From Branchiostoma floridae (Eukaryota > Chordata > Leptocardii > Amphioxiformes > Branchiostomatidae): DNA of 64,000 bases. The stretch is from assembly GCF_000003815.2 (NCBI RefSeq), contig NC_049991.1, positions 18,440,037-18,504,036 of the forward strand, read 5' to 3'. Below are positions 2,990 through 57,870 of this stretch, piece by piece; within the stretch, counting starts at the first letter, position 1; every line of letters begins with the position of its first letter. The position numbers were made by a program, and so were the translations under genes. The notes beneath the pieces are model-generated. The model saw nothing but the letters and a program-made list of their open reading frames with translations, was not told the origin of the DNA and ran no database searches.

Positions 2990-4234
2990 TTCACGCCTGC
3001 GCGAAGACTTTAATATGTTTATTGTGTCCGTGCACTCGTGGTGACCACCCGTAGCCCCCGGGGGAAAACGGAATCGTGTTTACCGGTATCGCTGCGGTGT
3101 GCGCTGAAGAAGACACGTCCCTTTGATTATAGGACACTGCGTTTGAATATCATAAGAAAGCCTTTCCAACGCTGCAGGAAATTGGTTTCTATAGGGGATC
3201 GTCTTCCATTAACCGTATGAACCACTAATGCTTGTTTAAATGGGTGCATTTCCCAGAAATAAGGCACTTAAGTTTTCCCAATGGATGTGTGAAACCGTTA
3301 TGTCATCACGGGAAGTCTTGAGTGAGATGTGCCTGGTTTATTCTAGATATAAAGTTCATTTCGGATGCATCAATGATGTCTATGATAGCCCACGATAACT
3401 AGGGTTACGACTTCTTCTTACTTAGTAAGTCCACATTATGATGACTGCGTATCATTTTCCACCACGCGACGGTCTTCAGCTATTTAGTCGTAGAGTGGAA
3501 AAGATCGCCTTTGCTAGAAAAAGGTATTAATGTGATGCTTTTAATGATACACTCGCCACCGTATGAGGCCAATTGCAACAGGCTTTTATTTGCTCGCCAA
3601 GATGTTTTGGCGTCACAAAAGCGCTTCTCAAAGAACTTGTCAGGAAGTTGCCTGAGGGTGATTGGAGGTGTGGTAAACGCGTATCTGAGACGACTATTAG
3701 TTTCTTTCTGAATTTAGTTATGCTTTATAGAGGGAACACTTTTCATCCACACAAACCAAAGAAACTCCACACATAACTGATCATGTCCTCCCAACTTACC
3801 AACCATCGTGATGGAGCTAGGTCGCCGGTTCATATTCGGCGCAGTAGGCTTTTTCTTCAACTTCGAGCATTTTGAAATTTACAAAACAATCGGTTGTGGA
3901 TGGTTTGTAGCTTTCACCAGGCCATCCTACGGGGGTACGGGGAGAGTAGAATTCGGTAAAAATTGAGAAATTGGCCAAGGCTGTCAGTCTTTCCCCTCCG
4001 GCTGACTAGCTCCTCTGATAGCAACACTGCCCTGGCAAAGTTATTCTCTAGATGAGACTAGATTTGGTTGGTGGTTGGGAGTAAGCCAAAAGTGGTCAGC
4101 AAGTTGCGTTTTTAGTCAAATTTGACTCTTAGTCTAAAACTGGTCAGACTGCTACAAACCTACCAACCATGGTTAGCTGTTTTGTTAGTTTTTGTTTGTT
4201 TGTTTGAACCTTTGTTTATTTACAAAAAGAAAAC
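2990..4234. other. intergenic, nothing assigned
   Basis: Open frames on both strands are 60-75 codons, overlap one another and show no domain, splice context or codon bias. I saw no terminal inverted repeats or tandem array. Confidence 0.45.
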
Positions 4235-4456
4235 TACTCTCCTTTTAACGTCGCAAAACCCGCACATTACAGAAAAAGTGGGATTTTTCGTCTTCCACTG
4301 TCTCAGAAAAAAGAAGTCACACCCAATAAGTTACATCTTTAAGTTAGACTAGAGTAGTCGCTGACTATACTGTTCTAGTGCTTACCATTATTTGTCTGTC
4401 TTTTTTCTTTTGTCAGCTGCAATTAGCCTTCGGGCAAGAATTTGCAATAAACAACT
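4235..4456 (+). mobile_element. LINE 3' end (copy 1 of 2)
   Basis: This segment matches 10805-11010: shared ACGTCGCAAAACCC, ATTACAGAAAAAGTGG, CCCAATAAGTTACATC, then the terminal TGCAATTAGCC..CGGGCAAGAA..TTGCAATAAA. The AATAAA-bearing terminus is the 3' UTR of a CR1/L2-type non-LTR element. It is 5'-truncated, and the coding part is degraded. Confidence 0.6.
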
Positions 4457-4575
4457 CTGAGCTTTTGGCGTTGTGGTTTGCACGTTAGATTTGTGATCAG
4501 GCTGCCCGGGTTCGGCTTGGGATCGAATCCCGGGAGTTGGGATGTTGTTTCTTTCTGTTCTATAATGTATACGCT
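4457..4575 (+). mobile_element. tRNA-derived SINE
   Basis: A tRNA-like head has an A-box region near TGGCGTTGTGGTTTG and a B box GGATCGAATCC (about 4520-4531), followed by GTTGTTTCTTTCTGTTCT. The same head and tail reappear in antisense at 37395-37540. Promoter boxes are seen; the SINE class is inferred. Confidence 0.6.
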
Positions 4576-5079
4576 ATAATACGCTTTAATAAGTTTTTTA
4601 TTGGTCTCAAAGGACCTGTGTGAAGGAGACACGTTAGTAGATTATTGATTGCTACGACTCTGCGCCACACATGACGCGTTTTCACAGTGTACACGATGCA
4701 ATTATCTCACAACTCCAGCACAGAGTCCTTAATGCGACAGCTTCTGTAAGGCCATGTTGATTTGATTATATGGATTACATCCTCTGGGAACCCCAAAACT
4801 GATGCGAGCATGCGAATAATAATAAAAAAGATTGGCTAAAAAACATTGCATTCATTATGAAATGTACAGGTAAGTGGTCTAGAAGGTTGAACAAATGAAC
4901 AAATACAGAGTATTGATGCCAGTATATATCCTAATAATATGTTACTTTTGTTTTCACATCTTCTTTGGCCTTGGACATTTGTATACGTTTTCGGATATCT
5001 ATATTTTTCATCACATCATATATTTGCTCCTTTTGTAGCTTCTCTTCTTCCGTTTCGAGGCTACCAACCTCAACTTGCT

Positions 5080-5255
5080 GAAGACCTTTGTAGCCTATAT
5101 AGTCATTTTTCACTTGAGTGAAGTGAGGAAAGTCGTGTAAAGTATCTTTCCCAAGGGCACAAGATCGGTGACACGGCGGAGTTCGAACTCAGGACCTTCT
5201 GGACCTGAGTCAAACGTGCTGCTGATTGCGCCACGCGGTCCCACAGCTGATTTAA
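5080..5255 (-). mobile_element. tRNA-derived SINE with conserved 3' domain
   Basis: On the minus strand the element starts near 5255 with GGGACCGCGTGGCGCAATCA (A box), has the B box GAGTTCGAACTCC, and continues into CTTGGGAAAGATACTTTACA and CTTTCCTCACTTCACT. That second block belongs to the same family as the SINE 3' half at 57235-57370. Confidence 0.65.
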
Positions 5256-5579
5256 AGCATGGTTCCAAAACTTTTTTTTTGTAAACGGCGAACATTGAAG
5301 CGCGCGCGTATGTCACCCATACAATCAACTCAACAAGGCCTAATTGAGGATCTATCTTCGTAGGTCCCTTTGCTTCAATCACACAGCCAGCTGTTACAAC
5401 AAACTTGAGATAATTCCCCCGCCCGCCTCACTGTCATGCTTTGAATAGACCGACTGACGCAACAGGAGGACCCGGCGCCCACATCTACAGGTGGTAATGA
5501 CAAGTGTGGATGTCTCCACCGGTGTAACATGCTGCTGTGAAGCAACTGACGGAGTGGGATCCGCTCATTCTGAAAGTAC

Positions 5580-5895
5580 CGAAGGCACAGACTACCTCCT
5601 TCAGAGGTAATCTACAGTTCCAGGGCCCGATGGTTTGGAATGAACTTTCTACTGAACAGCGACAAAGGACTACTGTAACAGCTTTTAAAAACGGACTGAG
5701 ACAGTACTATTAGCAGCCGGCAGGACATACAATTGTATATTGCTACCTTTTTTTCCATATTAATTTTAGTGTATTTCGAAATCATGTTGTATGTACTATG
5801 TGTATGTATGCATATGTGCCCAGTGGCACTTGACAAGCAGGCAGTAGCCTGAGAGTGTTTTTCCTGGTTAAATAGATAAATAAAAATGAAATGAA
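5580..5895 (+). pseudogene. LINE polymerase C-terminus and 3' UTR (truncated)
   Basis: The frame ending at TAG 5711-5713 reads FQGPMVWNELSTEQR followed by TAFKNGLRQYY. This is the typical C-terminal tail of CR1/Jockey-type reverse transcriptase proteins (a Phe-x-Gly-x-x-x-Trp-Asn block, then a Phe-Lys-x-x-Leu end). About 180 bp of 3' UTR follows, with an A/T-rich tail (AATAAAAATGAAATGAAAT) to about 5898. The catalytic domains are absent. Confidence 0.7.
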
Positions 5896-5899
5896 ATAA

Positions 5900-6933
5900 C
5901 AAGCGCTGCTTCAGAACAATGTAGTACGAGGGACACTGACATTGACGTGACTTGTATCATCAACAAGCTCCTAACTTTTGTGCTGTTTTGTGACTATGTG
6001 GTTGACAGTGACATGCTTTCTTTATGTCTGTTTTGTCCCATGTTCATTAAATCTCTTTTTACTCCTCTCATGATTTTCTGGTAACATATCTAGAAACCGT
6101 CCGGATGTGTGCCTGATCGCCCCGCGGCAACAAGAAACTAGTGGTCATCAGCGGATCCGGACGGAGGAAGAACTCCTTCCTGCAATTTCATTTTTCCTGT
6201 TAATTCGGAAATAGTGCCATTATGTATGATGATTCTGATATTTCCGGCTTATTGGATGACTCTTATTTTTGCCTTTTATCTTCTATCGGAAGGTACAGTA
6301 ACTTCGGACGTAAATTTGAGAGTTTGACATCGTTTCGGTGCGGTGTCTGTTGTTTAAAAAGTAACGTTTGCGTTTTGGCTAATGATAAATGAGAGTGGTG
6401 GCGTTTGGAAACTTTCCGTTCAGGAGCTAATTTTGCATCGTCTTTGCATTATTTACACCATGAATCTTAGCCGGTAAAAACAGAAAAGGCTTGTTATGAA
6501 TATAACGTTCCATATTGTTACATTCTAAGTAGGGTACCGTAACTTCGGCATACAAGTACCTCTGCCTCTCTTGGACTTGTTGTTGGAACGATTTTGAGAA
6601 AACAGATGGAATTTGTTGTCAACTTACTTCAGCTTCCCTCTGGTACACATAGAGGATAAAAAAACGGTTAAACAACCCATCAAACATCTCTTAGCGTGCA
6701 AAGCGGGTCAAAGGATCGTATTTTTTTCTTCTTCAAAGATTACGAAAATACGTCAAGTACGACATTTGGTCGTTCATTTTTCTGATATCACGAAGAAACT
6801 CGTATGAATCCGTCTTCTCCTGAGGCTAAATCTATGTATCTTCTTTCACAAAGCTCCATGACTCTCCGTGTTGAAAGAAGATACAAGCTATAGTGCTTGA
6901 AATAGAGTCTTTTTTCCGCCTGATGTTGATGAT
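5900..6933. other. intergenic, nothing assigned
   Basis: No supported gene. GGTACCGTAACTTCGG-like sequence occurs twice (near 6293 and 6534), which may mark an old dispersed repeat. Confidence 0.4.
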
Positions 6934-7518
6934 TAAGACTTTCCGGGTGATGACGAACATACGTACATCACACCCTCAGGCACAACATGCGGCACTTTAT
7001 CGAATCAGGAAGACATAACCACACTCCTCTAGAGCAAAGAATATGCCAATTTTGTAGTTTAGGTAAAGTGGAAGATGAAGCACATTTTACTATGGATTGT
7101 CTTTTGTATGATTGCGATAGGAGCTATTTATTTGACTATGTGTTAAGTAAATATCCCCACTTTAGATTCTTGAATAGTAAAGAGAAATTTATATTCCTGA
7201 CAGCTCTTGATAAACCAACTATGACCAACCATACAGCTAGCTACATTTATGCAATTACCTAAAAAGGGAGAGGAAGTCGAATGTCATAGAATAGAATTGA
7301 CGCATATCTGCATATATAGATGTGTATGTTTGTTTCCATTGTTACATATACTACTACTAGTACGTGGTTCTTAACATGTGACCTGTACTTAGCCCAGCAG
7401 GGCAAAAATGTGCAATAAAGGTATTCATTCATTCATTCACTAAGACTTTCCGGGCGATGACGAACACACGTACATCACGCCCCCCCCCCTCCCTTGCAGG
7501 CGCAACACGCAGCACTTT
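6934..7518 (+). mobile_element. 5'-truncated LINE bracketed by 65-78 bp direct repeats
   Basis: The LINE body runs 6999-7440. It begins in frame at Ile-Glu-Ser-Gly-Arg-His and encodes to TAA 7260-7262 the C-terminal zinc-finger tail typical of many invertebrate LINEs: RICQFC, then VEDEAHFTMDC (Cys-x2-Cys...His-x4-Cys), then the KEKFIFL segment. The 3' UTR ends in AATAAAG and an ATTC tail that stops at 7440. Immediately on either side are copies of the same sequence, 6934-6998 and 7441-7518, starting TAAGACTTTCCGGG and ending GCACTTT; the right copy has a C-run expansion. These look like an unusually long, aged target-site duplication. Confidence 0.75.
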
Positions 7519-7799
7519 GTGAAATCTGATGAAAGAACCTCTTAAAAAAGGCCCGTGTGAAGTACCTAGTGCGAATCAAATTGCGTGGACCGTATTCGAC
7601 TAATTAGAATGAGGCTTGTTTGCCTGCTCGACTTCATAATAAGGTTGTTAACGTCACCAAATAGTTATCATATTTCCCGATAGGGCGAGCCTAATGGTGA
7701 AGTATTGTGTGCGAATATAGCTTGACAAAGAGCAATTACTGGGAGGGAAACATCCCGCATTTTCTGGAAAATGTTGCCTTTCTAGCGTTTGCGAAGCCG

Positions 7800-8125
7800 G
7801 TGTGTAAAGGTGGGGTCACACATGCGTATATATATTCAAGTCCGTTTGAGGTGCGTATAACGCTCTTAGTCTCTACCAGGCTCCACAGGTCGCGGGAAAA
7901 TAGCACAAATTGGACAAATATAGATACATAACATGCCAGATGAGTTAGCTGACCGAGAAGTATAGTTAGCGACCCAGCTAACTCGTCTTTCATGTTACCT
8001 GTTTACGTTTGTCCAATTTCTATCATTTTTACAACGACCTGTGGAGCCTGGTGGAGGCAAATACTCCAATGCGCGCCTCATACGGACTTAAATATATACG
8101 CAGGTGTGACCCCACCTTTACGCCG
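7800..8125. mobile_element. foldback element, copy 1
   Basis: A large inverted repeat. The left arm (about 7803-7935: AAGGTGGGGTCACAC, TTCAAGTCCGT, CAGGCTCCACAGGTCG, AAATTGGACAAA) is matched in reverse complement by the right arm (about 7985-8122). A related element lies at 49015-49290. No coding potential; short frames inside are arm artefacts. Confidence 0.75.
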
Positions 8126-9221
8126 AAGGATTCATCAACGTTCTTGTATGTGTTGTCTATGTTTCTCCCTTTATGCGTTTCAGTACTATTAGTCTAAAAA
8201 AATGCACACAAATTTGTCATACATGTACATAAAAGAATGTGGGGGTGGGGTGGGGTGAAATATAGAAGATTGCTACCTAAGATGATTTAGTCTAACTAAA
8301 ACAACGTAAAAAAATATGTAGAGGTAAACCACGGTCATTTGTTTGATTTTATCATGAAAATCGTACGTATACCACCTTAAAAGGACACTTGTCAGAAAAA
8401 CGAAGAAGACTACCATGATGACGACTACTACGTTTTGGCCGCAGGTAGGACGGTTATGTTGGGGGTTTTGCCTGAAGCTTCCGCCACTTATATCACACAG
8501 AATGGGCCCCCACGTACATGTGTAGGAGGAAGAATAAGAACTCTAATGGAATTTAAAAACAAGACTTTTTATCCTTGAAATAAGCTAGTGACGACATGCA
8601 GCCAATAGAAAGAAACAACCTTGTCAAACTCAATCCATATTTCATTATATTTATAACAGATCCATAAGGTATGTATTATTATGATTATTATTATCATCGA
8701 ATGGAGAATTCTTTACTACGCCATTCCATTTGTTGCGGTCCTTCCTGGCATTGCCGCGTCCTCGTCCTTGACACTCTACACCAGTGTCCCACATTGAAGC
8801 TTCTGTAAAACTTTGTTTTCCGAGACACAATTTTCCTCATAGAATGAAAGTTTATTTGTGTTGGTAGACTACATTGTATAGAAACACTTTACATCTAACA
8901 CTGCAATTAATACTATTGGGACTTACCCTTCTAAGTTTTCCTCGTGTCTTCAATGGAAAGTAAGACGTTCCCGGTCAACTATGAGTGCACCTACTAAATA
9001 GTTAATTTAGGGAGATTATTAGTTTAGGGAGAACATAATATAAAATATACTACAATGCTAAACTTTCTTTCAACACAATTGAGTACACGGATCACATTTT
9101 CAACGACCACTGTCGCCTTCTTGAGGATCAAATACAAAATAATACAAAATGAAACATGCAACTGGGTGAATCTCTAACGAGTCATACGTGCCTGATAGCA
9201 CCCGCTGTCTTTCATCAGTAA
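8126..9221. other. intergenic, nothing assigned
   Basis: AT-rich DNA with no supported gene or element boundary; a G-rich run (GTGGGGGTGGGGTGGGG) lies near 8240. Confidence 0.4.
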
Positions 9222-30639: not shown

Positions 30640-31242
30640 TATTTTTCCTCACGTGTGACGAGCGCAGTCATGAAAGGGATTTTAAAAAGCCTCCACGAAA
30701 TTGGTTCGGACTCGCGGCGCCGAGTGATGTGGGATCAGCGACACACTTTTCCCTCGAGGCCTGGGGAAAAATTGTCATGTTTCCGGGTACCACGTTGACA
30801 GTATCCAGCAAAACCTAGAGATTCTAGTTCTTTTCTTTCTTAGGCGTAGGTCACATTATCAAGTAGAGGCCCGGCCGGGATGTTTTAAGAAACGAAAAAC
30901 TAAAATGTATAACGAGAAATATACACATATCATTCCCATGAATTGACATTTTGAGTATTTTTATGTCTTTTATATCATTCTTTTCGCTTCCGAATGCTGC
31001 CCGGCCGGGCCCCGGTTTCGAAATTTGACCTAGTAGTATAAGCAAGGGACATAAGATTTTGATTTGGCAAGTGAGTGATGGAATCTAAAAAAAAAAAAAA
31101 AAGAATCTAACGTATTTCAGACTTTGTTAACAGATTGTGTAGTAAACATTTTTGCTTCTTTTCTTTCTGTTTATTGATATTCTTGTTCTTGTTAAATGTA
31201 TATCTGCATAATTATGATATTATAATATGATGGTGAAATTTG
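30640..31242. other. intergenic, GC-rich then AT-rich
   Basis: Only the CpG-containing stretch 30700-30790 upstream of the minus-strand gene and an A-run (31089-31102) stand out. Confidence 0.4.
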
Positions 31243-31349
31243 ATATCCAAGCAGATCATACGGTAGCCATACACACTCCTAGGCCGGCTAAACTCCTTGG
31301 CCAGCTTTTGATACAATCTTATGCTACCGTAGGATTTGCTTGGAGATTA
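31243..31349. mobile_element. foldback element, TCTCCAAGCAGAT family, short copy
   Basis: GATATCCAAGCAGATCATAC at left is inverted as CCGTAGGATTTGCTTGGAGA at right, with the family centre CTAGGCCGGCTAAACTCCTT. Confidence 0.65.
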
Positions 31350-32179
31350 GGTGAAAATATTAGTGTCCTGATGCATTTCAGTTTGGAACTTTAAAACTGA
31401 ATTCTCTGGATCTCTTGGGCCGGAATCTAAAGATACAAAAAAAATCCTAGCAACCTTTTTTTTTCTAAGAACGTAACCTAAAACACAACATTGTTTCCTA
31501 GGCCCAAGTAAGTCCTTGCTATGTCTAATGCATCTTTCCCGATCGCGACTGCAAATGTCATTGCCCGACTTCACAAGAGAGGCGGCGCTCGTATCTTTGA
31601 GAAACAGTCAAGCCGACGGAACTCTCAGCTAATGAAAGTACCATATAAGGGTTGTTGTGACGTGATCACGATGTTATGGTACAGGGAAATGGCATTTCTT
31701 AAATCCTAGGATGAAATCCTGTTTCATCGTGTAGAGTAATGGTCACAGTGACCTACATACTACGTCACATTTCAACAAAGGGGCCCGTCCGGACAGCTTT
31801 GGGGAAACGGAAAGTATGACAAAAAGACAACAAGAACACAAAACGTACCAACGTAATAATTCAACAACGTGCCTTGTGCATAATCATTGGCATAAGAAGG
31901 CTAAATTTTTTATGTCATACCTGTGACGCGAAAACGTTCGATACGGGTGTTCCGGACCGGCTGGTAACTTTCCGTACGGCCCGGGGTTATCACACGGGCT
32001 CCATTCGAATAAATCGAACTGTTTCGAGTGGGCCGAGTCCGGCGCCATCGAAAGTTCGAATACCTGATTCGGACGTTGGAACATTACTGTTGCAACAATT
32101 TTTTTTTCGAGGGCAAAAAATTTGTTCAACTTCTGGCGCATTTCGCATCAAAACAGTGGTTTTCTCAGGTGGGTATGAC
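31350..32179. other. intergenic upstream of the long direct repeat
   Basis: A MITE-core-like stretch (AAGTATGACAAAAAGACAAC, 31815-31850) suggests an old element. Overlapping 85-codon minus frames near 31884-32247 are not supported. Confidence 0.35.
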
Positions 32180-33033
32180 ATAAATAAAATACAACACGGT
32201 GTATTCCGCATCACCCTCGGTCTCAGCCCTCCCGCGGGTCGGATCACCCTCCGGCCTTCGGCCGTCGGGCGATCCGACCCGCGGTCGGGCTGATACCTTG
32301 GGCGATACGGAATAAACCGTGTTGTATTCTATATGTACAACATACGTACGACTCCAATAATGTCCCCAGTCTGGGTTCGTACGATAATCGTACGACGTTT
32401 GAGATCGAGTACTTATTACCCTTATTCACACTTTATGTTTCACTCTGAGAGGCATGTATCTAGTGTAGCCTTACACAGTTTCAACAGACAGGAAGACATT
32501 TTTTTGTTCCATTGGACGGCGATCCTTGGGAGACTGTTCAGCGACTAAAATTGTATTTGTGTTACGCTTCATTTCATTGCTGGAATGGGGGGTAAGACGT
32601 AAATGAATGATTAAAAATAAAACAGAACACACAAAACGTAAAAAAAGTCGTTCTTTATCTACAAAATTCGTTGAGTGATCTATGAAGTCTTTTGTCCTTC
32701 AGCTGTCGCAGAGCCATTGCAGCCTCTGTTGTAAATGGGACGAAACAGAAATTACCGTATATGGCTTGCTGAAATGGCTTTCAGTGAAATTTAAGATCAG
32801 ACGTCATGTTTTGGAATATTCTGGAGGGCACAATAGTATGGCATAAATTGTGTGCTATTTGGTACAATGGAGGGATTGAAGCTGCTTTATAGTCACATTT
32901 TCTAGCTAGTCACTCAGGAGGTCTACAAGCTGGTGACTCACGTTGGCAATAATATTTCCACATATGGAATAGAGTCTTGCGAGATGTAAATGTCTGATCT
33001 TCATTTGCTTAGGCCATCTAGCATTATTTTATT
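32180..33033. repeat. long direct repeat, left copy (854 bp)
   Basis: Identical by eye to 41966-42820 except for one extra A in an A-run (CGT followed by seven A here, eight A in the right copy, near 42430). It starts ATAAATAAAATACAACACGG and ends GCATTATTTTATT. Sequence outside the repeat differs on both sides. It brackets the Tx1-type LINE precisely: left copy, LINE, poly(A), right copy. Confidence 0.9.
32188..32328. repeat. 141-bp near-perfect palindrome
   Basis: AATACAACACGG..TATTCCGCATC..CCGCGGGTCGGATC folds onto GATCCGACCCGCGG..GATACGGAATAAACCGTGTT around a GGCCTTCGGCC centre. A second identical copy lies at 41974-42114 because it sits in the long direct repeat. It would form a strong hairpin. 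No TATA or protein frame; probably a foldback element. Confidence 0.8.
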
Positions 33034-33693
33034 ATTATATTATTCTTTTTTTTGTCGGTGCGCGGATTTTGCACAGGTCGGACGTGTGTTCCTATGCTCT
33101 CGTTTTTGAATCATTTCTGCTAAAGTTTTTGCTATTTTTCTGCTTGTTACTCTTCCTAACATTTTGTGACTTGTTTTCAGGTCCATTTGTGTTTGTTTCT
33201 CACTATTGATTTTTTGTTTCTGTTCATTCTTGTCTCCGTGTGAACACACCGGCGAGCCAAGCCCATCCAGCGGCGGCGGTCTCGTGACGGAGCCCCGACC
33301 AGGCAGACTACTCAACGCCGAGGAAAGGAAGTAAGAAGGAAGGAAGGAAGGAAGGAAGGACGCGACATCGATCGAGGCCTGTCCCCTCACTCCACGGTTT
33401 CCTGACCAGCGTTTTTCCTGACCAGCGAGTTTCCTGTGGATCAGAGAGGACCCCAAACCCGGTGCAGACAACAAACGCCGGCGTCCCTGGGACTATAAAC
33501 AACACTACAGACAGGTCATACGCTCCTTTTTCTGACTTCAACAACTTGATCACTCAAATCTATCACCAACTGTTAAAGTTGGAGTGCTAAGGATTACTCT
33601 GTTTCCAAGAATAATCCGTCTGAACCCGTTGTCTGGCAATAATACTGCTGAAGACTCCGGCGTAACCCAGAAGGAGATCATAACAAAGGCAAC

Positions 33694-34896
33694 ATGGCGT
33701 CTAGAGAAGAAAGGGTGCGGCCCCTTACAACCAGCAACCATGTCCCTTTGCCTGGCGTCACACAACGGACGATCACACCAGTCTTCCTGAAGAACCGGGA
33801 AATCGTCGGGGAAGATGAACGACCATTCACTACCAGAGAGATCTGTGGCGCTATGGAGAAAGTAACAGGATATGGCACCATAGAAGGAGCGCAGAGAATA
33901 CGGGGGCTATGGCGGATCTACCCACAAACAGAAGAAGCCAGAATCGCCCTACTCCTCCATGGTATATCCCTGAGAAGCCGTCACTATCAACCTTACAGTG
34001 ACAACCCCTTCGTAGTACGTGGTACTGTGGATGTTCCAACAACAAGGGTGTACGTAAGTGACATTCCTCTATCGTACAGCAACGAAGAAATAAGAAGCTC
34101 CTTCGAAAACCTAGGGTGCACCTTGGTCAGCAAGATAATAGATGAAAGAGACAGAGATGAGAACAAGCGCCTTACAAGATGGAAGACAGGTCGCCGTTTC
34201 TTCCATATGAACATACCCAAAGACCCCCTACCACCAACTGTCAAGATGGGGCCATTCGTGGCAAAGATCTACCACAAGGAACAGCGAGACGCCCAAAGGA
34301 AACAAAACACGTTCTGTAAGAACTGCAAGCAGCCTGGACATACTCTCTCGAGCTGCCCAGAACCACAGCGGTGTTTTGATTGCGGCTTAGATGGGCACAA
34401 GAGAGGTGACCCCCGTTGTTTACACATCGACAGCGAGAGCGACGGTCAAGATCATGGACCGCAATCTGCAACTGACGATATCTTTACCACGCCTAAGGGC
34501 ACTGACACGACAGCTGAACGATCTCCGCTACCAACAGAAGTGATCGACGACTTCTATAATGAGTATGTCGAGCGCCAACAGCCCAGTGCCGAGCCGACGG
34601 TGGCAGACCAAAACACTTCCGCAAACGTTGCCATAGAAACTGAACCCGGAAGCAGTTGGTCCGAAGCATCCAGAACCCCCGAGCCGGGACTGCCCACTCA
34701 GCCGGGGGGACCGATTGACAGATTCCTGAAGAAAATGAAATCCACCTCTGGTGCTTCAAAAAAGACGAGTCAGAGAAAGAAAAACCGGTCAGCAGGTCAA
34801 AAACGACCTAGAAACAGCTCACCTGCTCACGACACGGAAGAGCCCCAGCGAAAACAACAGAAAGGTCCCCCACCTCCGCCCAGTGGTACGACCTGA
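33694..34896 (+). CDS. LINE ORF1 protein with zinc knuckles
   Basis: 400 aa, start AACATGG (strong context). Residues about 117-175 look like an RNA-recognition-like fold (TTRVYVSDIPLSYSNEEIRS, later GRRFFHMNIP). Two CCHC zinc knuckles follow: Cys208-x2-Cys-x4-His216-x4-Cys221 and Cys227-x2-Cys-x4-His235-x6-Cys242, the second with a stretched last gap. The C-terminal part is Ser/Pro/Lys-rich and basic, likely disordered. The family role is to bind the element RNA and form the retrotransposition particle. The frame has no disruption. ORF2 begins 273 bp later, so it is presumably translated by reinitiation or internal entry. Confidence 0.85.
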   Translation: MASREERVRPLTTSNHVPLPGVTQRTITPVFLKNREIVGEDERPFTTREICGAMEKVTGYGTIEGAQRIRGLWRIYPQTEEARIALLLHGISLRSRHYQPYSDNPFVVRGTVDVPTTRVYVSDIPLSYSNEEIRSSFENLGCTLVSKIIDERDRDENKRLTRWKTGRRFFHMNIPKDPLPPTVKMGPFVAKIYHKEQRDAQRKQNTFCKNCKQPGHTLSSCPEPQRCFDCGLDGHKRGDPRCLHIDSESDGQDHGPQSATDDIFTTPKGTDTTAERSPLPTEVIDDFYNEYVERQQPSAEPTVADQNTSANVAIETEPGSSWSEASRTPEPGLPTQPGGPIDRFLKKMKSTSGASKKTSQRKKNRSAGQKRPRNSSPAHDTEEPQRKQQKGPPPPPSGTT

Positions 34897-35169
34897 GACT
34901 TTAAAGAACTTCCGGATTGACACCGCATATACGAACTGGACCGGATCCCGGATACTCGACTCATAGGACTCTGGATTATGCCAAACAAATACGAACTGAT
35001 CATGAGTTCACTATGTTATTAATGCAAGTCAAAGGTGAGTGCTTTACGCCTCAATGCTCTTGTCATGCGGTGGAATGTGAGGAGCAAAATAGTAATACGC
35101 TGTTTGTTAACATCAACAAAAAAAACAGCATCAAAGTAATTGTGTACCATCTCTCTCAACCTCCTTGAT

Positions 35170-35532
35170 ATGAGCTTGTGTAATTTATCTCTTATATCTC
35201 TCAACGTCCGAGGACTCCTCGAGAAAAACAAAAGAAGTTCAATACTTTCATATATAAATAGGCAAAAGGCTGACGTAATATTTCTCCAGGAAACACATTT
35301 CACCAATGACACCAGATATGTTCTAACTAAAGAATGGCAAGGTCCATGCTTTCAGAGCTTCGGATCGAATTGTAGCAGAGGCCTCGCCATACTGATTAAA
35401 CCTACACTTAATTTTGTCCTACATGATTGTAATTCTGTTGATAGTGATGGCAGAACACTTGTCTTAAATTGTATTATTGAAGGTGTAGAGCTTTGTCTTG
35501 TGAACATATATGCCCCAAACAAAACCAAGTGA
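35170..35532 (+). pseudogene. LINE ORF2, 5' part (endonuclease N-terminal half)
   Basis: ATG at 35170 gives 120 codons before the nested insertion adds a TGA (35530-35532). Endonuclease landmarks of the exonuclease/endonuclease/phosphatase superfamily are visible: SLNVRG (Asn12), LQETHF (catalytic Glu41), RGLAILIKP, and NIYAPNKTK. The reading frame resumes in the same phase at 37574. Confidence 0.85.
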
Positions 35533-36038
35533 AAGAATAGGGTTGTTTGGTATCTAAGTCCTATATTAACTTATCAGGAACTCAGCCAAACCAGTCGATT
35601 ACTATTTGTGAGCCGTGTTTATTCAACCTATGCTAAACTCAAGTAACATATAATACAATGTGTTTCACTTAGGACTACAGCAAGTTGCAGTTACAGTTAC
35701 AGGTCTAGGATAATGATACAGAGAGCTAAGTATATTTACAGAGAGAGTTGGTCTAACTTACTAACTAGTACACAATCCAACAGAGGGACGAAGCCCTACT
35801 TAAACAACCTCACCTGAGTCCTTGGGGCACCGACTGACTAAATCTCTTCATACAATCTCTAAAGTTAACTTGCATGACAATAGGTTGCATAACTCCGCCC
35901 ATCACAGGTAAGCTGGTTGGATGCTGTTGGCATCCAGCCAATCAGGGTTTACCTAATATGCTAATGTAAGCTCCTCCTCATATGGTCTAGACAGTCATTA
36001 CCTAATTATCTCATATGTCAAAGGTCATGGCCGTTACA
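35530..36038 (-). mobile_element. candidate 3' LTR preceded by polypurine tract
   Basis: On the minus strand GGTGAGGGGGAGG (about 36041-36053) is followed by TGTAACGGCC (from 36038), and the segment ends CTTTCA at 35530: TG..CA, 509 bp. AACATTTGAGGACAAATGTT, a palindrome just upstream, resembles the sequence before polypurine tracts of Gypsy-type elements. Confidence 0.5.
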
Positions 36039-36156
36039 CTACCTCCCCCTCACCGAACATTTGTCCTCAAATGTTAAGATACCATAACATTACAAGGGAG
36101 GTATAACAAAAATACAACAGGTTGATATAAAACAACAAAAGTTGGAATCCTCAGTC

Positions 36157-36378
36157 ATATATCATTATCTAGCTCTCTGTGACCAATCGGACTGCTCTCA
36201 CCAGCCATTGGTCGCTCACATTCCGCATATGGTCCATACAATACAAAAATTTCAGCATAGTACAGATATTCAACATTATCTAAATCTCTGTGACCAATCA
36301 GACTGCTCTCACCAGCCATTGGCCACTCACATTCCGCACATGGTCAATACAATACAAAAGTTCAGCATAATACAGATA
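36157..36378. repeat. two-copy 111-bp tandem repeat inside the insertion
   Basis: CTCTGTGACCAATC, TGCTCTCACCAGCCATTGG, CTCACATTCCGCA and AATACAATACAAAA repeat with a period of 111 bp. Confidence 0.8.
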
Positions 36379-37051
36379 TACATATACATAAGCAATACAT
36401 AAGCAATAATCATGTGGAGCAACATTGTTTATCATACTGTGTCTGATACAGACAAAGATTTACATGTGTGCTTCGCAAGAGACAAAATTCCGACGTGTAC
36501 GGCGGTGACAGGTGCATAACAAATGACAAGGCGGCCAGACACACCAGAAGCAGAGAAGGCATGTAGAATTCCATGTATACTACCTGGTCAATCACTTAAA
36601 CTTGTCCGTCATTACCCGAAATAAACATCTAAGTAAACTTAACACATACTCACCGGCATGGGGAGAGATTTACTGCTAATCACCTTTGAGATTAGATACT
36701 CAAATCCCCATCCAATTCCTCGAGAGATGGACACGCAGCACGCAGACGACACCAACAGGAGACTTGAGCTCGCCTACATTGGCTGCGGCGTGAAAACAGA
36801 AAACGTGTATACCTACCCATCCTCTCAGCTCAGCTCCGGAGTTCCATCCGTACTTGATAACAAAAAAAAAAATCTTCATATAACCTTAACTTCCGGGGGA
36901 CCTAGCCACGGTGATTTACAGGTGAAACAGGAACCAACACACAATCTACAACAACCAATGCACCAGCACACCCAGCCGAATGATTTGCACCATCAGAACC
37001 GCGAGACACGAAGTGGTCTGTCTTTGCTCAGCACAACTTAACAATAACACA

Positions 37052-37315
37052 CTATGTTAAATCTATGTAATCCGAGTCAGAGTCCAACGCAAAGTCCTCC
37101 AGGTACGACGGTCTGCGGCGATGTCGTCGTGGTCTCGGGACGTCAGCAGCATGGCTCGTCGAAGTCCTCTCCTCTTCGCTGTCACTGGAGACGTCCGGAT
37201 TCACAGCTGGTCGTCTCTCCCTCGGCGGAACAAGTGTCTTCGGGACGGACGCCTCGTCCTGGTCATCTTCATCGCCAGACTGCTGGTCGGAACCTGAAAC
37301 GGAAGCAGAACAAGT
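37052..37315 (-). pseudogene. retroelement polymerase C-terminal tail (fragment)
   Basis: A minus-strand frame of about 86 codons ends at TAG (37054-37052) with RPSYLEDFALDSDSDYIDLT. A basic/acidic low-complexity stretch (SGDEDDQDEASVP, SDSEEERTS) precedes it. The Arg-Pro-x-Tyr-Leu-x-Asp-Phe end resembles C-termini of LTR-retrotransposon polyproteins. No catalytic domain remains. Confidence 0.42.
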
Positions 37316-37390
37316 GCCCTGGGAGTCTAGTGGTTAGGATTTGGCGCTCTCACCGCCAAGGCCCGGGTTCGATTCCCGGTGTGGGAACCA
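37316..37390 (+). tRNA. tRNA-Glu(CTC)-like sequence with encoded CCA
   Basis: GTCTAGTGGTTAGGATTTGG (D arm), GCGCTCTCACCGC (anticodon arm, CTC) and GGTTCGATTCCCGG (T arm) match eukaryotic tRNA-Glu. The acceptor stem is decayed: three central C-G pairs remain and several positions mismatch. CCA follows the discriminator base, which eukaryotic tRNA genes do not encode. It is therefore a copied tRNA, either a retrotransposon primer-binding region of abnormal length (minus-strand TGGTTCCCAC) or part of a SINE. Confidence 0.6.
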
Positions 37391-37394
37391 TTGT

Positions 37395-37540
37395 AGAAAT
37401 ACAGAGGGGCGAGTAAGAACAGAAAGAAACAACACCCCGACTCCCGGGATTCGAACCCGCGCCGAACCCGGGCAGCCGGATCACAAATCGAACGTGCAAA
37501 CCGTTCGGCCATAAAGGCTTAAGCCGTTAGGCGTCTTCGG
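37395..37540 (-). mobile_element. tRNA-derived SINE-like head
   Basis: On the minus strand TGGCCGAACGGTTTGCACGT (A box) and GGTTCGAATCCCGG (B box) are followed by GTTGTTTCTTTCTGTTCT. It is the same family as 4457-4575. Confidence 0.6.
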
Positions 37541-37573
37541 TTTAGCAGTCCTTGAACACCACTGTTACACAAG

Positions 37574-40500
37574 GAAAGAAATGATTTCTTTAAAAAGGTA
37601 TCCATCTGGTTAAATTGCCATGACCCAATTAATCTACTCTGCGGAGGAGATATGAATTGTGTACAAAATCCCCTCGTGGACAAAAAAGGTGGTAGAGCTG
37701 ACACAGCACTAAGATCAGTTACAGCTATGAAAAACCTATGTTCTAAGTTAGATATGTGTGATGCCTGGAGGTCAGTGAATCCTGACACCCGACAATATAC
37801 ATGGAGGAACTTGGCCCAAAATGTGGCATGTAGACTTGATTATTGGCTCATCCATAAAAGACTAGTAGAAAATATAGAAAAATGTGACATTAGACCTGCT
37901 ATTCTTACTGATCACCAGGCAGTCTTTCTAAAGCTCAGGTTCAATAGAAGCTCTAGAGGCCCTGGGCTCTTTAAACTAAATGTGACCCTTTTAGAAGATG
38001 AAGAGTATGTCTCAGAAGTTTTTGATATAATAGAAGAACAGAAAAACAGTAGCATCAAATCAAGTAGAGATAAACTAGACATGTGCCTTATAAAAATATC
38101 AGAGTTCTCCAGACAATACGGAGCAAAGAAAGCTAGACAAAACAGGGCACATATGGAAGACCTTGAGAGACAATTATGTCATCTCACAACTGTAATTGAT
38201 GGAAATCCAACAAATGAAGACATCCTGACCTATAAGCAAGTTAAATCTAATCTAGAAAATCTTTACAAAAAAAAGTCCCATGGTGACTATATTAGGTCTC
38301 GAGCCAAATGGAGAGAAGAAGGGGAAAAACCGTCTAAATATTTCCTGAATCTGGAGAAAAAACGAGGCATAGACAAGGAAGTTGATTGTTTATATATCGA
38401 GGGAAAGGAAGTGACAGAGACCACAGAAATCCTTAACGAATGTACCAATTATTATCGTAAACTTTACCAGGAAGACAATATAGACAATGCTAAAATCGAT
38501 GAATATCTACAGAACATACATCTCACCAATATGCTAGACCAATCTGATAAGGAATTTCTTGACAAAACTGTTACCAAAGAAGAATGCAAAGAAGCCCTCT
38601 TTGCCATGAATATAAACAAAAGCCCTGGACTAAATGGTATCCCACCTGAACTACTTAAAAAGTTTTGGCCTGCTATAGGTGATCTTATCTATGATTGCAT
38701 ACAAGAAACCTTAAGCAAAGGGAAGATGTCGGTACTACAAAGACGTGCAGTAATAAGACTCATACATAAAAAGAATGAGCGAAAGTATCTAGAGAACTGG
38801 AGGCCTATAAGCCTTCTGAATGCTGAGTATAAAATCTTTGCCCATATATATGCAAACAGACTGAAGAAAGTACTACACAAGTTGATTGACCATGACCAAA
38901 CTGCATATATTAAAGGAAGATTTATTGGACAAAATGTGCGCCTGATCAAAGACATTATTGACTACACAGAAACTCAAAACTTACCTGGAGCGGTCATCTT
39001 TTTGGACTTTGCGAAGGCTTTCGATTCTATTAACAGACAATTCATGTGGAAAGTACTGCAAAAATTTAATTTTGGCCCTAGCTTTATCCATGCCATGCAA
39101 TGCATGTACAATGACATCAGCAGTAATATTATCAATCAAGGCTGGATGTCTGAATCCTTCCCACTTAACAAAGGTATCCGCCAGGGATGTCCTGTATCTG
39201 CACTTCTTTTTATCTTAGCAGTAGAAGTTATGGCTGCGGATATTAGGAATGCACATGATATAGCTGGAATAAAAGTTAAAGACAATTCTAATGACTCTGT
39301 TGAAGTTAAAATATCTCAAGTAGCCGATGACACCACCTTATTTGTATCCGATATTGCATCCATGGAAAATGCCTTTAGACATATTCAAGATTTTTGTACT
39401 GTTTCAAGCCTAACTTTAAATGTTAAGAAATGTGAAGGTTTATGGATTGGAACTTATGTTGATAGACAAGACACTCCCCTAGGTATATCGTGGCCTAAAA
39501 CCCCAATAAAATCATTAGGAATATACTTCTACAACTCTTCCCTACACCATGAATGTGAACTGCTAAACTGGGAGAAGAAGATTGAAAGATTGAAAAATAC
39601 ACTACAAGTATGGAGATGCAGAAATCTAACCCTCTATGGAAAAATCACTATCATTAAGTCCCTAGCACTGTCTCAGATAACACATAGCATGGCAATGATT
39701 GTTACACCACCCTGGGTTATTACAGCTGTGAAAAAGGAAATCTTCAATTTTTTATGGAAAGGTAAAAAAGACAGAATCAAAAGAGATGTGATAAGCCAGC
39801 CCATTGAATTGGGAGGACTAAATATGTTAAACCTAGATTACCAGAAAAATGCACTTCTATCACGTTGGATCTATAGGCTAACATCAGAAGACAATTGTAG
39901 ATGGAAAGCATTACCCCTACTATACCTCAGTTCTTTTGGCCCTAATAACCTCATATTAGGCATGAACTTTAAAACTGAAAGTGATGGCCCAGACCTAAAC
40001 AATATTCCCACTTTTTATAAACAAGTCATACTATCCTATCACAAAGCTGACAAAGTAGATGACATGAAACCCCATAACCTTAGAGACCAGATAATATGGT
40101 GCAATGAAAATGTGAGATCCCAGGGTAAAACTCTCTTCTTCCCTCAATGGATTAAGGAAGGAATCATCTATGTGAAAGACTTATTCCCAAACGGACGATT
40201 CCTCTCGACAGATAACCACCCAACGCTTAGTCATAGACCCAGTACTTTAATTGAACGCATTACTTTATATCAAGCTATACCCAGCACCTGGAAAGATTCT
40301 ATTAAATGTGCTATAGACTCAGTTGACCGCCCAATACATCCTGTTATCCCAACCCCACATCTGCTTGAACCAAGAACAAAAATGAAAATCAAGACAAAAT
40401 CCTGCAAATCACTTTATACTGCTCTCGCTCAGAAACATGCAGTAGTTCCAAGCTGCCAACAGAAATGGCAGACACTTTTTGATATAGACTCTCTTAATTG

Positions 40501-40984
40501 GAAGAAGATTTGGAAAATGCTAGGTACAACTTCATGTAAAGAAACACAAATAGCAGAACTTAATTACAAACTACTTCATCAAATTTTACCATGTAGTGAG
40601 AAACTAAACAAATGGAAAATACAAGATGAAGCTGGTCTAGTAATTACTCCTATATGTATATTATGTGACAGTGGACATGTTGACAACTATAAGCATATGT
40701 TTCTGGAATGTAAAAGGCTAACTGACCTGTGGAACTTAGTACATACTTCTGTACCCTATAGCCCTAGTAACCCTTATATTGATTTTGAAGAGATTATACT
40801 AGGAAAGGTAAACCAGCCAATAAATGAAAATAATCTGAAGAGAAGAATACAAATAATATCTATAGCAAAGTGGGTTATCTTTAAAACATGGATCTTTTCT
40901 AGGAAGCTACCACAGCCCATTTCAGGTTATAACTTATCTTACATTTTCAACTGGGAAATCAAAAACAGACTGCATGATCTGTAA
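37574..40984 (+). pseudogene. LINE ORF2, 3' part (endonuclease C-half, reverse transcriptase, CCHC)
   Basis: In-frame continuation of the 35170 start; together 1256 codons. Order: endonuclease GGDMNC (Asp/Asn pair), RLDYWL and the LTDHQAVF active-site His; a linker with a charged, coiled segment; reverse transcriptase with NWRPISLLNAEYKI, FIGQNVR, FLDFAKAFDSI (first catalytic Asp), GIRQGCPVSALLF and QVADDTTLF (catalytic pair Asp705-Asp706, whole-ORF2 numbering); a thumb/C-terminal region; and Cys1148-x2-Cys1151-x9-His1161-x4-Cys1166. Val stands where most families have Tyr or Phe before x-Asp-Asp. No internal stop or frameshift is seen over 1110 codons downstream of 37652. It nicks target DNA and reverse-transcribes the element RNA; this copy cannot make the full protein because of the insertion. 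Confidence 0.88.
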
Positions 40985-41545
40985 TGTTTTACTTCTATCT
41001 ACTTAGGTACTAAAAATGTTTTTAGCTCTTAATATGCTCTTACTCTTAAAAACTGTTTAACCCATAGTAGATAAAAGATAGGTCAAGTCCAGTCTACTGT
41101 GTTATAACATACTGTGAACCATCCATTGTTAAAAAGATAAAGTCTTGATTGTAAATAATAACTTGTTGTTTTGTAACCATCTACATGTATCATAAATATT
41201 CCATGGCAACCATGGAAATCATATGGAGTATAGTAGTTGTACATAATAGTCTGTATATGTACGTGAGAAAAAGACTTGTATGTGCGAAGATTTTTTCCCT
41301 ATGCAATACCTATTGTACTTTTTATCACCACCTGTGCAATAGCTGTACTTGGTAGACATACTTGTTTCAACTTTCCTGTGCTGACCAAATGTACTCTTAC
41401 CCATGTGATAGAAGACACATGTACTTATTATCACAACCTAGTCGGTTGATCGGGTTTACTGATTGATGCTGTGCTACACTCAATTGTGTAACAGCAAATG
41501 TAAATGTAACAGTACTGTGGTGGACTATCCTGTACTCTCTGCATT

Positions 41546-41560
41546 AAAAAAAAAAAAAAA

Positions 41561-41599
<39 letters not shown>

Positions 41600-41931
41600 C
41601 TCACACACTTCGCTTGTTTACCTTGTGTACATGTCTGAAACTCTGAGGCAGTACATGTCTGAGACTCTGAGGCAGAAAATGCATGCTTCGCGTTTTATAT
41701 GTTGTTTCCTAACCTCATACATTTGCGGTGATCAACTATCGATGTGACCTCAGATGAATACCCTCGCAAAGCACCCTCCCTTCTTGTTGGACAGCATTCT
41801 TTCTGTGTAACGTTACGAGGTCGTGGGAGCCTTGGACCCGGAAGTGTAAAAAGGCAGTGTCAGACTTTTTGTGTTTGAATAATGTTTTATCTTTCACATC
41901 AAACTGGTAATAAAAGTGTATACAAAGCAGG

Positions 41932-41965
<34 letters not shown>
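41546..41965 (+). other. poly(A), 339-bp 3'-transduced segment, second poly(A)
   Basis: A first A-tract (41546-41596, interrupted by one GT) ends the LINE 3' UTR. Unique sequence 41597-41935 follows, with AATAAA at 41909-41914 placed 22 bp before a second A-tract (41936-41965). The second tract abuts the right 855-bp direct repeat. This is what a read-through transcript polyadenylated at a downstream host signal produces. Confidence 0.75.
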
Positions 41966-41968
<3 letters not shown>

Positions 41969-42820
41969 AATAAAATACAACACGGTGTATTCCGCATCAC
42001 CCTCGGTCTCAGCCCTCCCGCGGGTCGGATCACCCTCCGGCCTTCGGCCGTCGGGCGATCCGACCCGCGGTCGGGCTGATACCTTGGGCGATACGGAATA
42101 AACCGTGTTGTATTCTATATGTACAACATACGTACGACTCCAATAATGTCCCCAGTCTGGGTTCGTACGATAATCGTACGACGTTTGAGATCGAGTACTT
42201 ATTACCCTTATTCACACTTTATGTTTCACTCTGAGAGGCATGTATCTAGTGTAGCCTTACACAGTTTCAACAGACAGGAAGACATTTTTTTGTTCCATTG
42301 GACGGCGATCCTTGGGAGACTGTTCAGCGACTAAAATTGTATTTGTGTTACGCTTCATTTCATTGCTGGAATGGGGGGTAAGACGTAAATGAATGATTAA
42401 AAATAAAACAGAACACACAAAACGTAAAAAAAAGTCGTTCTTTATCTACAAAATTCGTTGAGTGATCTATGAAGTCTTTTGTCCTTCAGCTGTCGCAGAG
42501 CCATTGCAGCCTCTGTTGTAAATGGGACGAAACAGAAATTACCGTATATGGCTTGCTGAAATGGCTTTCAGTGAAATTTAAGATCAGACGTCATGTTTTG
42601 GAATATTCTGGAGGGCACAATAGTATGGCATAAATTGTGTGCTATTTGGTACAATGGAGGGATTGAAGCTGCTTTATAGTCACATTTTCTAGCTAGTCAC
42701 TCAGGAGGTCTACAAGCTGGTGACTCACGTTGGCAATAATATTTCCACATATGGAATAGAGTCTTGCGAGATGTAAATGTCTGATCTTCATTTGCTTAGG
42801 CCATCTAGCATTATTTTATT
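41966..42820. repeat. long direct repeat, right copy (855 bp)
   Basis: Matches 32180-33033; includes the second copy of the 141-bp palindrome (41974-42114) and an old MITE-core remnant (TTCGTTGAGTGATCTATGAA near 42450). Confidence 0.9.
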
Positions 42821-43214
42821 CAACCACCAAGTCCACAATTGGAAAATTTTCCACGGCTATTCCACGATGTGTAATAAACCCTAGTATTCTACATCAAATA
42901 AACGATCGAAACGCATCAACTGCCAGGCGCAAAATAAGACGAATACTAAGTACGATATGATGATGATTCAAATATGTAATTAATTTTACATTTGTTCATC
43001 CGATAATCGTATTTGGGTAACAATAATGTACACAAAAGATTGTCAAGCAGTGCAATTCAGTCCCGCAGGCTGCAAGCGTGCATTTGATTTGTCATTTTTG
43101 TTTTGAGCATGAAACCAGTTTACGAAATGTCAAAACCCGTACCAGCGCTAGCTTGTACCTGCCAGCCATACACGTACAGATACTGGATATGCAGTCTCTA
43201 TTTCGTTTCTGCTG
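42821..43214. other. intergenic, nothing assigned
   Basis: Right flank of the long repeat; no gene recognised. Confidence 0.4.
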
Positions 43215-44110
43215 TAAACATATCCATCACCCTGCTCGCAGGGCCGTAAAATCCATTTTTAGACTTCCTTCTGCTGAACTTGAGGACGACCTTGCGAAGG
43301 CTGGGGTCTCCTGTGTCTTTAAGAAATTTAAAACAAAGTAGTTTAAGGTGTGACTGTTGTGCGCCTTATATTTCTGCAGAGGGTTGCTAACTGATGTTGA
43401 TTAAGTCGTATTAGTTAAGGTGTGCACTGCGTGGTGCGGCACTGCGGAGTCGTTCACTGCGGCACTGTTTTGCTATTTTCGCCCATCATTCAATATTAAT
43501 GATAGTCAATATATTGCGTAATACGTAAATGTATGACTTAATACAAAATACAAAATAGAATGTAAGAATATTCGGTCTTTATCTCTGAAATTCAACGGTT
43601 GAGTCATCTACGTCCCCGCAGTGGTGCACCGGTGCCCCAAGTGCGGTGAGATACCACCATTAATGTGGACTCTCACTGCACTTGGGGCACCGGTGCACCA
43701 CTGCGGGGACGTAGATGACTCAACCGTTGAATTTGTCATTTTCGCGATTTTACAAATACCCAAAACATAAGAAAATTCGTTCTTAATCTTCATCTCTGAA
43801 ATTCGTTGAGTGATCTTTTGAACCCCGCAGTGCAGCACCGGTGCCCCAAGTGCAGTGAGATGCCATCTTACATGTATATGCAGTCTTGTCTCTATTCCGT
43901 TTCTTCAGTAAACATATCCATCACCCACCACCCGCCCGCGCAGGGCCGTAAAATCCATTTTTAGACTTCCTGCCGTGGAACCTTACACGACCTTGCGGAG
44001 GCCGGGGTCTCACGATGTTGCCCCGGCTTTTATGTCTTTAAGGACATTTAAAACAAAGTGCTTTAAGGCGTGACTGTTGTGTGTCTTATCTTCTTGCTGA
44101 GGAAAGCTAA
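43215..44110. repeat. direct duplication flanking a MITE pair
   Basis: AAACATATCCATCACCC, GCAGGGCCGTAAAATCCATTTTTAGACTTCCT, GACCTTGCG and TTTAAAACAAAG occur at about 43215-43400 and again at about 43912-44120 in the same orientation, with two MITE bodies in between. Confidence 0.7.
43418..43868. mobile_element. two adjacent MITEs sharing a 57-bp perfect inverted repeat
   Basis: The first element starts AGGTGTGCACTGCGTGGTGC (43418) and ends near 43660; the second runs to TGCAGTGAGATGCCATCT (43868). At their junction 43588-43644 and 43678-43734 are exact reverse complements (57 bp, 33-bp spacer), longer and more exact than normal terminal repeats of this family. Confidence 0.75.
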
Positions 44111-57370: not shown

Positions 57371-57485
57371 GCACACAGTGGATAAGAACTTACTGCCGTC
57401 AAAAAGCAATGAGACTACATTGACCTCTATCTTTTAGCATGATGGTAGGAAATTATGTTGCTGAATTTTGAAGAAAAAAATGGTG

Positions 57486-57870
57486 TTAACTGCACGTGTA
57501 AACAGGACCCTGGGGACCTGCACGATCGTCGAGGGTTAACTGCCCGTGTAAATAGGGCCCTGGGGACTCGCACAGTCGCACGAGGGTTAACTGCACGTGT
57601 AAACACGACCCTGGGGACCACGTACGGCCGCTTGAGGGTTAACTCAACGTGTAAACAGGACTCTGGGGACCCGCACAGTCGCATGAGGGTTAAGTGCAAG
57701 TGCTAACAGGACCTTGAAGACCCGCACGGTTGCCCGAGGGTTAACTGCACGTGTAAACAGGACCCTTGGGATCACACACGGTCGCAGGAAGGTTAACTGT
57801 GCGTGTAAACAGGACCCTGGGGACCACGCACGGTCGCATGAGAGTTAACTGCACGTGTAAAAGATTCAAT
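57486..57870. repeat. minisatellite, about 8 units of 50-53 bp
   Basis: The unit is TTAACTGCACGTGTAAACAG then GACCCTGGGGACC and a GC-rich block ending in GAGGG. Starts lie near 57486, 57536, 57587, 57639, 57690, 57739, 57792 and 57845. About half the units keep a CACGTG E-box. The frames it creates are repeat artefacts. Confidence 0.85.

Follow-up and report, generated by a model that had tools for sequence, protein, structure and literature searches.

A 64,000-nucleotide stretch of the genome of the amphioxus Branchiostoma floridae (C13:18440037-18504036 on contig NC_049991.1; hereafter the window) carries a full-length retrotransposon of the L1/Tx1 type, a long interspersed nuclear element (LINE), enclosed by two nearly identical direct repeats of 854 and 855 bp. 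The repeats lie where the two halves of a target-site duplication (TSD) would lie. The whole arrangement is probably the product of a single retrotransposition that left a very long TSD; we give this reading, drawn from sequence comparison, a probability of about 0.7. The following features make up the locus.

~31909-32337, forward strand: dispersed repeat element of ~430 bp, uninterrupted beside repeat copy 1, its right end a strong hairpin.
32180-33033, forward strand: direct repeat copy 1, 854 bp, interpreted as the 5' TSD.
32184-32332, no strand assigned: inverted repeat (palindrome) of 149 nt at the right end of the dispersed element, arms 84% complementary.
33034-33042, forward strand: 9 bp of extra sequence, ATTATATTA, at the 5' junction, before the LINE proper.
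33043-41545, forward strand: body of the full-length L1/Tx1-type LINE with a nested insertion, 99.4% and 99.3% identical to the relative L051 on either side of the insert.
33694-34896, forward strand: open reading frame 1 (ORF1), 400 amino acids, with CCHC-like motifs recognized by eye.
35140-35529, forward strand: N-terminal part of ORF2 with an APE-type endonuclease (PF03372, 1.1e-8), cut by the nested insertion.
~35530-37573, no strand assigned: nested insertion of ~2.04 kb in ORF2, made of dispersed repeat sequence, CAAG at both edges.
37574-40984 (open reading frame listed from 37652), forward strand: rest of ORF2 with the reverse transcriptase (PF00078, 5e-35).
41546-41594, forward strand: internal poly(A), interrupted once by GT, at an early end of the family's 3' untranslated region (3'UTR).
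41595-41934, forward strand: non-LINE tail of 340 nt with its own poly(A) signal and a relative at C8:15293837-15294122.
41935-41965, forward strand: final poly(A), abutting copy 2.
41966-42820, forward strand: direct repeat copy 2, 855 bp, interpreted as the 3' TSD.

The two repeat copies align without a single substitution. Their sole difference is the length of one A run (A7/A8), exactly as the sequence-only reading of this DNA had described, and the left end of the repeat, ATAAATAAAATA, is A-rich and ambiguous by one A against the adjoining poly(A). Copy 2 follows directly after the final poly(A), and copy 1 ends at the 5' junction of the insertion, with the 9 bp of filler in between; the TSD geometry proposed earlier is thus present, and it recurs at a second locus and provisionally at a third (see below). 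The assembly was searched at the DNA level (513,431,437 bases in 431 contigs, the best 40 of 2345 first-look candidates being scored). Among the matches listed, these two copies are the only ones of full length, and the remaining matches cover parts of the first ~166 bp of the repeat, which belong to the dispersed element. A reading of the repeats as LTR-like sequences (long terminal repeats) or Penelope-like pseudo-LTRs was rejected, there being no other full copy among those genome-wide matches and no match to the repeat beside the other LINE copies fetched for comparison, except one local match of 71% in L061. Within the window, an internal stretch of the repeat (~413-502) is similar at 72-80% to eight other places. 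A tandem array with a 52-bp unit and 7.4 copies occupies window positions 57485-57861.

The two ends of the insertion are unusual in different ways. At the 5' end, the repeat border was said to coincide with the first base of the LINE; it does coincide with the end of the insertion, and the LINE proper probably begins nine bases further on. The 5' ends of two relatives, L042 (TTCATTTTGATTCGG) and L046 (TCTTTTTTGATTCG), set the likely start at 33043 (TTCTTTTTTTTGTCGG) and leave nine bases over. At the 3' end, the 3'UTR typical of the family extends ~290 bp past CTCTGCAT, reaching AATAAAGCTT and then poly(A). That of the window copy ends early, at CTCTGCATT, and passes into the internal poly(A), the 340-nt tail and the final poly(A). 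The tail was not seen in other LINE copies. Its only other match is C8:15293837-15294122, which is 88% identical over tail positions 62-339 and which a gapped alignment extends to the tail start; this relative has AATAAA just upstream of the site where the window copy becomes poly(A). By eye, it sits between two coding-looking stretches.

In human L1 3' transduction, an internal poly(A) separates the LINE from a non-LINE tail, which brings a poly(A) signal of its own and ends in a second poly(A). The window copy has the same order of parts: LINE, internal poly(A), signal-bearing tail and terminal poly(A). It departs from such a transduction in that no LINE match was found near the sole C8 match within the 3,286 bp examined. 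The parent LINE may be polymorphic or unassembled, or the reverse transcriptase may have jumped to a host RNA. The tail is accordingly read as a 3' transduction or a template-jump chimera. Two separate insertions, the tail first and the LINE later, are unlikely, as no TSD is visible by eye at the border between the internal poly(A) and the tail.

The left edge of the duplication falls inside the dispersed ~430-bp element, and this makes it possible to tell which of the two outer junctions is new. The element matches six other loci (L003-L008) at 92.7-97.7%, the matches spanning 31903-31942 to 32334-32343, and this repeat, whose right end the palindrome forms, has at least 38 further copies in the genome. 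A palindrome near the start of the duplication had been noted from the sequence as 141 bp long and 8 bp away, with a speculative influence on second-strand cleavage; the structure is there, as an inverted repeat of 149 nt that begins 4 bp inside the edge. Folding of the strand at 32160-32350 gives -66.6 kcal/mol (z -13.3). All 26 other copies that were examined extend upstream past the edge with the sequence found beside copy 1, apart from small variations; two of these (L078 and L084) have a common outer flank and may represent one duplicated place. Because every copy continues upstream in this way, the left junction of copy 1 is old, and the border between the poly(A) and copy 2 is the new one.

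A TSD formed at insertion would explain the exact ends, the lack of substitutions and the recurrence elsewhere. The mechanism would run as follows. (i) The endonuclease of the element nicks, in this scheme, the bottom strand at 32179/32180, in AT-rich sequence at the foot of the older repeat's hairpin. (ii) The poly(A) of the RNA, which would comprise the LINE and the 340-nt tail, anneals at the nick, and the RNA is copied by target-primed reverse transcription. (iii) The top strand would break 854 bp away, at 33033/33034, as against 9-16 bp in most resolved copies. (iv) The 5' end of the complementary DNA (cDNA) would then be joined at 33033/33034 with the 9 bp of filler. (v) Finally, filling in of both 854-nt 3' overhangs would yield the long duplication; alternatively, sister copies of the stretch would be joined. 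The order of the nicks, the nature of the second break (a chance nick or one made by repair) and the fill-in are steps that we infer. The geometry, the identity of the copies, the newness of the poly(A)/copy 2 junction at the left edge of the repeat, the tail structure, the usual TSD length of the relatives and one firm recurrence are observed. The earlier proposal that target-primed reverse transcription used nicks about 850 bp apart draws support from the geometry, the substitution-free copies and the recurrence at L062, the third place being provisional.

The sister-chromatid form of this event is counted within the probability given above. The first strand would be primed on one sister at a replication fork, and the 5' end of the cDNA joined to the other sister 854 bp along. 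Such joining should give identical copies and the same ends, and would do so without the melting of an 854-bp duplex. No sequence feature sets it apart from the use of two distant nicks in a single duplex, and we regard it, taken singly, as rather unlikely.

The A-rich left edge also bears on a different history, namely later unequal recombination. Here the LINE would first have entered at 33033 with a short TSD. Recombination between its poly(A) and the A-rich beginning of the repeat, on a chromosome that lacked the LINE, would later have supplied the second 855-bp copy and removed the short TSD. For the long repeats of HERV-K, one report argues for a comparable 'pseudo-TSD' rearrangement model (PMC5488345). 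The recombination requires an empty homologue, and the identity of the repeats speaks against that. Heterozygosity of ~2.04-2.18% is reported for B. belcheri (PMC7417228). At 2.12%, a value borrowed from that other species and applied on the assumption of ordinary divergence at the locus, about 18 differences are expected between haplotypes over 855 bp, with a Poisson probability of ~3e-7 for one or none. No substitution was seen, so that recombination with an empty homologue and the joining of two haplotypes are both disfavoured. Recurrence at L062, and provisionally at the third place, would moreover demand repeated recombination exactly at the end of the poly(A). Unequal recombination is therefore an unlikely origin. 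The sequence-only reading had set tandem duplication or recombination beside distant nicking; of this pair, recombination with an empty allele keeps some probability, and a tandem formed before insertion has very little, as discussed below.

How long TSDs usually are in this family was addressed by a survey of related insertions, in which the best 40 of 110 first-look candidates were scored and gave 30 loci, one of them the window copy. Fourteen of the other 29 places yielded 13 resolved insertions: 11 short, one long (L062) and one provisionally long. With the window copy included (n=14), 11 are short, two firmly long and one provisionally long. The short TSDs, 9-16 bp and located after the poly(A), belong to L051, L052, L053 with the left part of L055, L058, L059, L060, L061, L021, L027, L028 and L035. 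L055 is used twice, its left part with L053 (short TSD) and its right part with L054 (provisional long TSD). Three pairs of designations refer to the same places (L018 and L062; L020 and L061; L015 and L056). A long stagger common to the whole family was rejected in view of the 11 resolved insertions with 9-16 bp; since these make up 11 of 14, duplication length is not fixed for the LINE family. The survey of other copies that had been called for was thus carried out in part, and it returned both a recurrence of the long TSD, in L062, and a predominance of lengths of 9-16 bp. Three of the short copies (L027, L028 and L035) start within ~30 bp of the ORF2 stop, consist of 3'UTR only and have normal TSDs; they are possibly a derivative of the LINE resembling a short interspersed nuclear element (SINE).

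L062 (C12:17708000-17717900, reverse strand) is the firm second case. Its LINE is truncated, the match beginning at residue ~509 of the 1110-amino acid ORF2 part. Repeats of 276 and 272 bp, 93% identical, bracket it: the first ends at the LINE start and the second follows directly after the poly(A). The divergence of the repeats fits an insertion older than that in the window. No other copy of the L062 repeat was found in the window or the other fetched loci (L018, the same place, left out). Among the direct repeats of at least 40 bp listed, up to 12 a locus, for 12 fetched loci, it is the only one that brackets a LINE; the others are closely spaced. A long TSD is thus probably not unique to the window in this genome.

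The same locus bears on the idea that the 855-bp repeat was already tandem and that the LINE landed at its junction. Tandem repeats do occur in the window. The insertion would have had to hit the junction exactly and to leave none of the 9-16-bp TSD seen in most resolved relatives, and L062 would call for a second coincidence of this kind; a pre-existing tandem is thus very improbable indeed.

A third case is pieced together from L054 and L055. In L055 (C1:2058500-2068400) the LINE occupies 3718-8142 and is mosaic-looking: variable sites switch several times between L053-like and L054-like states, a pattern attributable to gene conversion or misassembly. The right end of L055 is that of an L054-like LINE copy. 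A segment here called X (L054 reverse strand, 3129-4140) has its end precisely at the start of that LINE, and X is found again at L055 8195-8905, directly after the A-rich tail. The copies of X match at 571/611 and 91/102 positions, L054 having 311 bp extra; L054 has a run of N on its 3' side. We treat this insertion provisionally as a third long TSD, of ~710 bp.

Such places lend some weight to an assembly artefact, in which two haplotypes or overlapping contigs were misjoined and the 855 bp was written twice: the assembly does hold a mosaic-looking LINE copy (L055) and N gaps near other copies. The window itself has no N anywhere in its 64 kb, and the copies resemble each other more closely than two haplotypes should at the heterozygosity borrowed from B. 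belcheri. Both junctions can occur on one haplotype only if the repeat is present twice. L062 has the same structure with diverged copies, as has the third place, although the latter depends on the mosaic L055. An artefact is accordingly judged quite unlikely.

Several observations weigh against a single insertion with a long TSD. Unequal recombination yields the same final structure. Long duplication is not the normal mode, 11 of the 14 resolved insertions having 9-16 bp, and a further 15 places have no resolved TSD (L015, L016, L023-L026, L029-L034 and L036-L038). L023, L024 and L025 gave no flanking repeat, though the ORF2 match there starts inside the fetched stretch; at L029-L034 and L036-L038 ORF2 reaches the edge of the fetched stretch, and the 5' end lies outside it. 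A possible 8-bp TSD at L015, noted by eye, was left out of the count. The bases next to the nicks, compared by eye, are too variable to give a nick-site motif. The uniqueness of the L062 repeat refers to the window and the other fetched loci. The third case is assembled from two places, one of them the mosaic L055. There, identity between L054 and L055 is 99.8 and 99.4% in the LINE bodies and lower in X; the two X copies would therefore have to stem from different haplotypes. X is also partly dispersed sequence, its portion at ~L055 8496-8600 occurring in L003, L052 and the window as well.

Long TSDs account for 2 of 13 resolved insertions before the third case is added (95% interval 2-45%), and the two firm cases and one provisional case among 14 form a small and possibly biased sample. 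We entertain, as a tentative idea with less chance of being right than wrong, that the inherited insertions of this LINE group have TSDs of two modes, one of 9-16 bp and one, in a sizeable minority, of hundreds of base pairs.

The coding parts of the element support its placement in the L1/Tx1 group. ORF2 comprises an APE endonuclease and a reverse transcriptase, in two pieces with the insertion between them, the 3' end is poly(A), and the TSDs of the family are mostly short (9-16 bp), a length from which the window copy itself departs. The nearest solved structure to ORF2 is that of human L1 ORF2p (E 9e-65). A zf-RVT match (PF13966) is weak, at 23.6 bits against a cut-off of 27.5. ORF1 matches no Pfam family at E<=0.01, and its CCHC-like motifs, seen by eye, are only suggestive of membership in Tx1 in the narrow sense. 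The insertion sites of family copies have no obvious common target in an informal comparison by eye, made without a formal motif test. L051 (C13:19347477-), on the same contig, is a near-complete relative with open frames of 414 and 1266 codons; over the ORF2 part at 37652-40984, it and the window copy have 24 differences in 3333 sites. The ~2.04-kb segment within ORF2 is absent from L051 and is therefore recognized as an insertion. In a search with 35538-37580, its first ~1.79 kb gave ten long matches elsewhere, and its last ~245 bp is repeated separately. The end part is tRNA-like according to Rfam; ARAGORN found no tRNA gene in 31000-44000.

Long duplications of this kind are best documented for human L1 in cultured cells. 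TSDs of hundreds of base pairs to several kilobases are reported in cells deficient in nucleotide excision repair, and of up to 1.6 kb in complemented cells; in HeLa cells, TSDs above 100 bp never exceeded 10% of L1 events (PMC5223499). A second report gives maxima of 29,902 bp in CSA-deficient and 3,450 bp in complemented cells, with medians of 12-13 bp (PMC5717806). Like these, the window copy belongs to the APE-type LINEs and to the same superfamily, is primed by poly(A) and has a TSD of hundreds of base pairs or more. The human events are engineered and are frequent under defective nucleotide excision repair, whereas the window copy is inherited, full-length and from amphioxus. For inherited insertions, long L1 TSDs have been called non-canonical (PMC4805530). 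Human L1 and Alu TSDs are described as usually ~15 bp long, and the range covered by that survey was only 5-30 bp, so that long TSDs could have gone unnoticed there (PMC2912911).

Two other elements invite comparison, so far as the reports describe them. The TSD of R9 in rotifers measures 126 bp, where APE LINEs in general have 10-20 bp (PMC6895275). It resembles the window copy as a LINE with a TSD far above the usual length; R9 is specific to ribosomal DNA and makes a 126-bp stagger, whereas the amphioxus lengths vary (9-16, ~276, provisionally ~710 and 854/855 bp) and are mostly short. HERV-K insertions with TSDs of 111 and 250 bp are on record (PMC5488345). These too are inherited retroelements with anomalously long TSDs, and the subject of the pseudo-TSD debate. 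HERV-K is an LTR element inserted by an integrase, in contrast to the target-primed reverse transcription of the amphioxus LINE. Among the papers listed in searches of an open-access library, none was seen to describe long TSDs in LINEs of amphioxus.

The completion of LINE insertion after first-strand synthesis has been described as very poorly understood (PMC6895275). The window copy is a natural example of a kind of event known mostly from cell culture, and it suggests that the second DNA cut in LINE insertion can fall far from the first. With an inherited, substitution-free case of 855 bp and one firm and one provisional companion, amphioxus offers a place to test the question by TSD counts. 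If the two-mode reading were true, second-strand cleavage in the germ line would often depend on host nicks at a distance or on the sister chromatid, as in human cells that lack nucleotide excision repair. Small segmental duplications, each of several hundred base pairs, would then arise regularly and directly from LINEs.

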